Under the pieces are notes generated by a model, which saw only the letters and a program-made list of their open reading frames with translations, was not told the origin of the DNA and made no database searches. From a virus: DNA of 44,542 bases. This document shows positions 15,539 to 16,809 of the stretch, piece by piece. The translations under genes were made by a program, and so were the position numbers. Within the stretch, counting starts at the first letter, position 1. Each line of letters begins with the position of its first letter. The DNA lies in the IMG/VR virus record IMGVR_UViG_3300035670_000413, positions 1 to 44,542 of that record. One strand, given 5' to 3'.

Positions 15539-15739
15539 TTAGTCGAACAGCGGAAGCTGGTTTGGGTCTGATGTTTTGTAGTCGGTTGCGCGTATCTGTG
15601 CCGCTTCAACGAACGTAGCCAAGCGGCGGATGAGTTCTTTCTGAAAGTCGATGGGCATCCCAACGTCTGGCTCAAACATCAAGAGCGATGCGCTCAGTAG
15701 TTCTTTATCGGTCAGGGCTTGAGGTTGTACTCTTTGCAT
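15539..15739 (-). CDS. Small hypothetical protein upstream of primase-helicase
   Basis: This is a 66-residue acidic protein starting MQRVQPQALTDKELL and ending QLPLFD. I chose ATG 15739 because GGAGAAGAAT stands just before it; an ATG four codons upstream (15751) lies within that ribosome-binding region. It overlaps the end of the HTH gene by 28 bases. The LPLFD tail resembles clamp-binding peptides (QLxLF), so an interaction with the host sliding clamp is possible but unproven. Otherwise I do not recognise it. Confidence 0.75.
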   Translation of the reverse strand: MQRVQPQALTDKELLSASLLMFEPDVGMPIDFQKELIRRLATFVEAAQIRATDYKTSDPNQLPLFD

Positions 15740-15993
15740 ATTCTTCTCCATGCTTCGTCAGCGGTTTTAGATGCTTGCATAATCTTTAGCATTAGCTCGA
15801 CACGATCTTGGTAACCGACGAACACTTCGGTCTTACCCATCATCCAGTTATAAACAGTCTGTCGTGTCACACCAAGCACGTATGCAATCTTGGTCACAGG
15901 AAATTCTAAATAGATAGCCCAGCGCCCAAGCTGGTTGCCCGGTGTCTTAGGCGCTGCTGCAACGGCATCTATGATTTTTTGAGAGTAGGCCAT
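15712..15993 (-). CDS. Small helix-turn-helix DNA-binding protein
   Basis: The protein has 93 residues. Residues about 30-52 (FPVTKIAYVLGVTRQTVYNW) fit a helix-turn-helix: helix VTKIAYVLGV, turn, recognition helix RQTVYNWM. This is the Cro/CI or MerR-like arrangement with no effector domain. It probably binds phage DNA as a regulator and is a candidate ligand for the palindromes at 18229 and 35785; this link is inference. The gene starts just after the structured non-coding region at 16.0-16.3 kb, which would form its 5' leader if transcribed leftward. Confidence 0.85.
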   Translation of the reverse strand: MAYSQKIIDAVAAAPKTPGNQLGRWAIYLEFPVTKIAYVLGVTRQTVYNWMMGKTEVFVGYQDRVELMLKIMQASKTADEAWRRICKEYNLKP

Positions 15994-16012: not shown

Positions 16013-16318
16013 AAGTGCGGGGTCACAGGGCACTTGGAGTACAGCGAAAGGATCGCCCTGCCCCCGCTGCCGGTGTTATATGCGCCACCTCCGGCTGGGC
16101 TATTTAATAAGTTTGAAGACTGCGTTTCCCCGTCTTCCTACCGTAGTAATCCGGATTCCTACGGCTTTCCGGTTCTGGGTTAGTCCGCTTTACGTTTTCA
16201 CGTCCGGCAGTCTTCAAACTTATTTGGTGGGGTACTCGCGGCACTGCAAAGCTGCCGTTAAGCCTATAACTATCGCGGTGGGACTTCAACCCACAGCAAC
16301 CGCTTCCCCCGTAACTGT
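16013..16318 (-). ncRNA. Candidate structured RNA region, no gene
   Basis: The gap between the HNH/AP2 gene and the HTH gene has no credible ORF but many stems. Read leftward these are: an ATAAC/GTTAT outer stem enclosing GCGG/CCGC and GTGGG-TTGAAGT-CCCAC; CGGCA/TGCCG around GCTTTGCAG; and a perfect 17-bp stem (16106-16122 with 16208-16224). The 17-bp stem encloses ACGT-GAAA-ACGT, a GNRA-type tetraloop, and CCGTAG/CTACGG. Then comes a CCGG stem and GCGGGGGCAGGGC pairing near GCCCTG..CCCCGC. GAAA in the loop on the minus strand favours leftward RNA. I could not match it to a tRNA, a group I or II intron or a known RNA by eye. Confidence 0.4.
16106..16224. repeat. Perfect 17-bp inverted repeat
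   Basis: AATAAGTTTGAAGACTG at 16106-16122 is repeated as its exact reverse complement at 16208-16224, with 85 bases between. The interior holds smaller stems (CCGTAG/CTACGG, ACGT/ACGT). The arms could be RNA stem strands or the ends of a small mobile unit. Confidence 0.95.
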
Positions 16319-16809
16319 TATGGCATGGCGTGGTAAAGCGCCTTTACGCTTAGATACGCTTCGTGTGCTTCTTGCGGCGTATCAAAAACACCGATACGGT
16401 ACTGGTTACCGTCAACGCCGATCTGCGCTACGTACCTACCGTCGCATTCAGATACGCCAAGAAGCCCCGTCCTGTTGTTTTTCATGGCTTTGGTTCGGTT
16501 CTGGCCGTTGACCGCTACAGACACATCCCGCAGATTGACGATTCTGTTATCGCTTGGACAGCCGTTGATGTGGTCTATCTCGTTTTCCGGCCAGACCTTA
16601 TAAGTCATGAGCCACGCAAGACGGTGTGCCTTGAATTCGTAACCGAGCAGTCGGACACGCACATACCCCTTAGCATCGAGGCGACCAACCACATCGCCAG
16701 CTTTACGCTTATGCCCATTAACTTTATGCCGTAGCAGTCCGGTTTCAGGATCATACGTAAGCAACGCTGAAACTTCTTCGTACGACGCTTTGGTGTTGTA
16801 GCTTTTCAT
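16318..16809 (-). CDS. HNH homing-type endonuclease with AP2 DNA-binding domain
   Basis: The 163-residue protein starts at ATG 16809 behind GGAGAGGACACGCAC. Residues about 62-100 carry the HNH core: AHRLAWLMTYK, then ENEIDHINGCPSDNRIVNL with the catalytic-type D79-H80 and N92. Residues about 114-157 form an AP2-like DNA-binding domain (GVSECDGRYVAQIGVDG then YRIGVFDTPQEAHEAY). This architecture is typical of phage homing endonucleases. It sits between two complete genes, so it is free-standing rather than visibly intron-encoded. The adjacent structured region at 16013-16318 begins at its stop codon, and its first stem pairs bases around that stop. Confidence 0.9.
   Translation of the reverse strand: MKSYNTKASYEEVSALLTYDPETGLLRHKVNGHKRKAGDVVGRLDAKGYVRVRLLGYEFKAHRLAWLMTYKVWPENEIDHINGCPSDNRIVNLRDVSVAVNGQNRTKAMKNNRTGLLGVSECDGRYVAQIGVDGNQYRIGVFDTPQEAHEAYLSVKALYHAMP

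Follow-up and report, generated by a model that had tools for sequence, protein, structure and literature searches.

Comparison with viral contigs resolves the non-coding region at positions 16013-16318 of the window (the whole 44,542-nucleotide stretch of viral DNA analysed here) into a B-C-A row of three abutting, independent and covarying elements, each predicted to be a structured RNA, between two genes of a phage replication operon. The RNA strand is the minus strand, on which element B occupies 16312-16226, element C 16224-16106 and element A 16103-16013, with 1-2 nt between neighbours. The three elements recur in varied contexts in hundreds of mostly freshwater phage contigs. All evidence for the structures of A, B and C is comparative, and metagenome contigs may be mosaics, as is discussed below for contig L006.

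The region holds no convincing gene between the stop codon of an HNH endonuclease gene (16318-16320, minus strand) and the next start codon at 15993 (minus strand). This start codon opens a gene of 93 aa (15712-15993, minus strand; MAYSQKIIDAV...), one of many different genes found after element A. The leftward operon around the array also holds a DNA polymerase, an exonuclease, an SNF2-type helicase and a DUF927 protein. Folded as a single sequence, 16013-16318 reaches a z of about -2 against shuffles on either strand, modestly better than chance, and the question was therefore settled by comparison across contigs.

This comparison bears out most of the initial annotation, which had described about 300 strongly structured bases without a gene and had placed their boundaries exactly. 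The stems it listed are real. In element C, CCGTAG/CTACGG forms the apical hairpin (16141-16164), and the GAAA tetraloop stem is found on the minus strand as ACGU-GAAA-ACGU. GTGGG-TTGAAGT-CCCAC is a hairpin within the variable domain of B, and the 'strong end hairpin' corresponds to hairpin 2 of A. The long inverted repeat (16106-16123 / 16207-16224) is perfect as described, but measures 18 bp instead of 17. A novel structured RNA had also been suggested; we find support for this, with three RNAs in tandem in place of a single one. No Rfam family matches the stretch at threshold, and its stems are kept in relatives with compensatory changes.

Element A (16013-16103, minus strand; covariance model R1, 98.2 bits, E 1.6e-22) is predicted to form two hairpins. 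Hairpin 1 (16069-16095, minus strand), defined by a core string in viral contigs, combines a stem of 5-6 bp with a loop that hardly varies, RGUGGCG-(spacer)-UAAC. The stem exists in the versions GCCGG/CCGGC, GCCGA/UCGGC and GCUAG/CUAGC, and three contigs (L057, L068 and L114) carry in the loop spacer an extra stretch able to form a hairpin. Hairpin 2 (16017-16067, minus strand; 56 distinct members) consists of a 13-bp helix with an invariant GA bulge on the 3' side and a loop that usually contains UCCUUU. In an ungapped anchored alignment of the 56 distinct members, 380 of 392 cells in the inner seven pairs of this helix are paired, compared to 275 ± 6.5 with shuffled partners. The covariation score of A (A1) is 0.472 against 0.172 ± 0.019 for shuffled alignments, and slid controls stay at or below 0.161.

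A pattern scan found the core string of A, GCCCAGCCGGAGGTGGCG...AAC[AGC]CCGG, in at least 119 viral contigs, and a further scan found the core string of hairpin 1 in 30 viral contigs. A variant with another stem was found by pattern in 66 contigs, and all 60 of the new ones (60/60) carry A according to the covariance model. The matches include Cronobacter phage JK004 and Pseudomonas phages of the F116/LKA5 group, together with Pseudomonas genomes, one betaproteobacterial MAG and one Ensifer contig. In F116/LKA5, A sits between genes 028 and 027. Both A and B are absent from the helicase- or terminase-related named phages Rollin, Xp15, RHph_TM3_14A, Effie, DSL-LC04 and HTVC027P. The consensus of the hairpin 1 loop, AGUGGCG...GUAAC (window 16074-16090), resembles a conserved stretch of 16S rRNA, AGUGGCGGACGGGUGAGUAAC, possibly by chance. 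In four contigs (L007, L019, L020 and L041), a different long hairpin element, AACAAGCCTGAGAGCTAGG...CCTAGTTCTCAGACTTATT, lies directly upstream of A, in the place held by C in the window.

Element B (16226-16312, minus strand; covariance model R2, 44.2 bits, E 8.2e-8) is composed of a constant frame, (A)CGGGGGAAAGCGG-TTGC ... GCGAGTACCCCACC, that encloses an exchangeable domain predicted to be structured. The frame pattern CGGGGGAAAGCGGATGC...GCAGCGAGTACCCC(A)CC was found in at least 120 viral stretches. Its first helix covaries, being fully paired in 136 of 137 distinct copies through 11 sequence versions; GGGG/CCCC accounts for 123 of the 137, and the others include UGGG/CCCA, GGAC/GUCC, UUGG/CCAA, AGCC/GGCU, GAGG/CCUC and GCCU/AGGC. 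The nucleotides GAA and AGUA beside this helix read like a bulged-G (loop E) motif. Most copies of B start 5-8 nt past the stop codon of the preceding gene. The B model had no match in 399 genomes of one bacterial order, in a search run without a positive control.

Just upstream of B in six contigs (L391, L394, L398, L402, L404 and L405), about 150 nt upstream of C, lies a second B-like element, GGAGAGAAAGC...GTGAGTATCTCC, with a GAAAGC/GAGUA internal motif as in B, but without GGATGC. Arrays may therefore hold more than one B-type unit.

The interior of B is far more diverse than its frame. In the window, the variable domain spans approximately 16244-16295 (minus strand) and holds the GTGGG-TTGAAGT-CCCAC hairpin. 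Elsewhere we count 118 distinct domains, most of them unrelated to one another and having only the closing helix in common; this helix covaries, with 549 of 690 pairs against 438 ± 9. Unrelated flanks can enclose identical domains (L018, L059, L302 and L333). Conversely, unrelated domains occur in near-identical flanks in the pairs L070/L117 (flank identity 97.7 and 95.8%) and L302/L326 (95.7 and 98.1%), on which the claim of domain swapping rests. A third pair, L006/L018, has different domains within flanks that are 100% identical. Coding pieces of 108, 118 and 119 nt that are present in L018 and L031 are missing from L006; two of these are not multiples of three and their loss breaks the reading frame, so that L006 is probably an assembly mosaic and the pair was down-weighted as evidence for a swap.

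Some interiors of B are tRNA-like. The domain common to L287 and L331 reaches 25.9 bits in L331 over the full tRNA model, against a threshold of 29, and the domains of L342 and L306 appear by eye to be tRNA bodies without acceptor stems, although the tRNA model did not match L342. ARAGORN, run on loci with tRNA-like domains, reported no tRNA in L331, L287 or L342, and one ordinary tRNA-Gly in L060. In L287, L331, L342 and L306, the B frame appears to take the place of the acceptor stem.

It is conceivable that the frame alone matters and that the domain, inserted at a permissive site, has no function. The smallest interiors agree with such neutrality, since minimal B elements have just a GAAA tetraloop stem, CCGAAAGG, as their domain (L036, L261, L274, L297 and the Manatee Spring phage L383). 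Against it, B domains have on average better folds than shuffled sequences (mean z -0.78), some are tRNA-like as described, and some are kept as modules in different contexts or show compensatory changes (L293/L352). We regard neutrality of the domain as distinctly unlikely. A more speculative reading of the swaps, which we consider unlikely but somewhat less so, is that B would be an exchangeable, diversifying RNA cassette, with a constant frame present at most once per genome and an interior replaced wholesale between near-identical phages, acting for example as a mimic or decoy against host defence or against nucleases that cleave tRNA. If this cassette reading is true, B would represent a new kind of phage locus, whose swapped modules are unrelated, structured and in some cases tRNA-like without acceptor stems.

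Element C (16106-16224, minus strand) was found in 17 viral contigs, in which a pattern scan located the common conserved core GGACUAACCCAGAACCGG. Around this core, C is predicted to form an 18-bp terminal helix (16224-16207 / 16123-16106), the ACGU-GAAA-ACGU hairpin and an apical hairpin, CCGUAG/CUACGG (16164-16141). The terminal helix, which is the long inverted repeat for which the initial annotation had proposed looking for compensatory changes, indeed exists in versions that differ clearly in sequence, among them GUUUGAAGACUGC/GCAGUCUUCAAAC and GACCAUUGCU/AGCAGUGGUC. Among 14 aligned sequences, 12 of the 33 predicted pairs have changes on both sides, and the covariation score is 0.254 against 0.108 ± 0.011 for shuffled alignments, with slid controls at or below 0.081.

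The elements combine in several orders: B-A with a fixed short link, B-C-A as in the window, B-C (L392, and by reading also L393, L397 and L399), A-C and B-A-C. Exactly one A is present in each of 30/30 phage records, and B is present in 21 of 32, never more than once. The callable flanking genes are mostly co-oriented with A (54:5 upstream and 36:10 downstream) and with B (73:10 upstream and 74:19 downstream), which argues for a function as RNA and not as a DNA site. No independent promoter or terminator was recognised on the minus strand around the array, and an intrinsic terminator was accordingly rejected as its identity.

A site acting at the DNA level, such as a single-strand replication or packaging signal folding as a hairpin, would explain the limit of one copy per genome and the frequent location of the elements within the replication module. 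The orientation bias with transcription and the retention of G-U pairs in the helices disfavour such a site, and the position between neighbouring genes varies; we consider it improbable.

The HNH endonuclease gene (16318-16809, minus strand; Pfam HNH_3, E 5.8e-11; phrog_99, E 4.2e-58) is a neighbour outside the RNA array. The AP2-like C-terminus ascribed to its protein was not detected by Pfam at E 0.001. The initial annotation had further suggested that the RNA and the endonuclease may form one unit. Such a unit might be a HEARO/OMEGA-like RNA with its nuclease, or an intron with its homing endonuclease. The gene does directly adjoin the array in the window, and B or a B-like sequence also lies behind some of its relatives. 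Most copies of A, B and C, however, occur without an HNH gene, L244 has the HNH gene without any RNA element, and we found neither an Rfam intron or HEARO match nor an interrupted gene. On these grounds the joint unit was rejected, and we assign it very little probability.

The closest HNH relatives (L243-L246 and L253) share one genomic site, after a gene ending in DWDDE or similar and before a gene starting with MAYS or similar. What stands behind them differs: B in L243, a B-like sequence in L246 and L253, a very different stretch in L245, and no RNA element in L244. Many relatives of the window are without the HNH gene, and there B or A directly follows the upstream gene. Because HNH relatives at the same site differ in the RNA behind them and many relatives do without the gene, the HNH gene is an independent insertion separate from the RNA array. 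The contact of B with the HNH stop codon is likewise generic, since B begins at its usual short distance after whatever gene precedes it.

What might these RNAs do? Phages of Pseudomonas, of Cronobacter and from lakes all keep the loop of A, and it also turns up in Ensifer and betaproteobacterial assemblies; such a spread points to a target that the hosts share. We tentatively favour, at somewhat less than even confidence, a stable phage-encoded non-coding RNA that would derive from the replication-operon transcript and act on a host factor through the constant loop of A. The array would be transcribed together with the operon and then persist as a stable non-coding RNA. The hairpin 1 loop, RGUGGCG-N-UAAC, would bind a putative host component common to many proteobacteria, for example RNA polymerase, the ribosome or an RNA-binding protein. 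B would serve as a folded frame in which an exchangeable domain is tolerated or displayed, and C as a further docking or protecting module. Given at most one copy per genome and varying neighbours, these RNAs seem to us more likely to act in trans than to control a single given gene. That no promoter or terminator of its own was recognised around the array counts against this proposal.

The main rival to this proposal is a cis-acting intercistronic leader that would control downstream translation or the elongation or stability of the transcript, as an antiterminator like HK022 put, a riboswitch-like element or a translational element. The positions of the elements suit such a role: A ends shortly, and at a near-constant distance, before the next start codon, B starts close behind the preceding stop codon, and in Pseudomonas phage LKA5 an annotated promoter precedes A. 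The two-hairpin layout of A also resembles put RNA (PMC9378689). Against a leader, the genes after A have no function in common, being unrelated genes for HTH, winged-helix-like, lipoprotein, gp33-like, CsrA and other proteins; copies do not exceed one per genome; and in the window the operon continues for only about 3.5 kb downstream, which makes antitermination there less likely. We rate a leader in cis as only somewhat less probable than the stable RNA.

Among the genes after A, a CsrA-like gene lies 103 nt (L168) or 365 nt (L163) downstream, both in Pseudomonas assemblies; the L168 protein matches Pfam CsrA with E 3.9e-28.

Taken together, A, B and C would represent three structured RNA families that Rfam does not contain, abundant in environmental phages and conserved to single loops, and they suggest a phage RNA machinery that has so far been overlooked. 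The tandem arrays and the frame-and-domain layout of B predict that frame and loop have a host target in common and that the domain swaps have a cause.

We compared the array with known RNA families and systems. At the gathering threshold, Rfam gave no match in the window or in 12 loci bearing B or C. We found no earlier description of A, B or C in Rfam 15 or in the literature searched, which did not include the original IMES-2 and Proteo-phage-1 reports. HEARO and OMEGA RNAs, group I introns and IS200/605 ends also place structured RNA or palindromic DNA beside an HNH or other nuclease gene. The HEARO model matched nothing in the window at its gathering score and nothing in the region at E values up to 5, and the obligate nuclease association of HEARO/OMEGA RNAs is not seen for A, B and C. 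A group I or II intron was rejected, as no intron covariance model matched and no gene is interrupted; an IS200/605 end was rejected, as no IsrB or TnpA was seen beside the array.

The phage-encoded HK022 put antiterminator RNA forms two stem-loops in roughly 70-100 nt (PMC9378689), and in this A is alike. No sequence similarity of A to putL or putR was found, and put occurs as two copies near early promoters, whereas A occurs once per genome in varied places.

For B and C, no known family was found; for A, two families show partial likeness. The 3' hairpin loop of IMES-2 (RF02035), GGUAGCGCAUACAAC, is close to the A loop of the window, GGUGGCGCAUAUAAC; the match reaches 12 bits over the 3' hairpin alone, against a gathering threshold of 54.7, and in IMES-2 the similar hairpin sits at the 3' end of a 141-nt RNA. 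Proteo-phage-1 (RF03044), by its name a phage-associated RNA of proteobacteria, has nothing like B or C, its annotated Rfam structure differs from that of A, and it lacks a hairpin 2 with the GA bulge. Its scores of 15.9 bits in the window, 16.2 in L126 and 17.6 in L122 are well below the gathering threshold of 42, yet the weak match recurs in these three divergent members of A. The Proteo-phage-1 consensus, AGCCGG...AAC-A-CCGGCAGC, has the stem and flanks of A hairpin 1, and the cmscan alignment of L122 shows the block AGCCGG...AACACCGGCAGC in common with A, which may thus be a distant relative of Proteo-phage-1.
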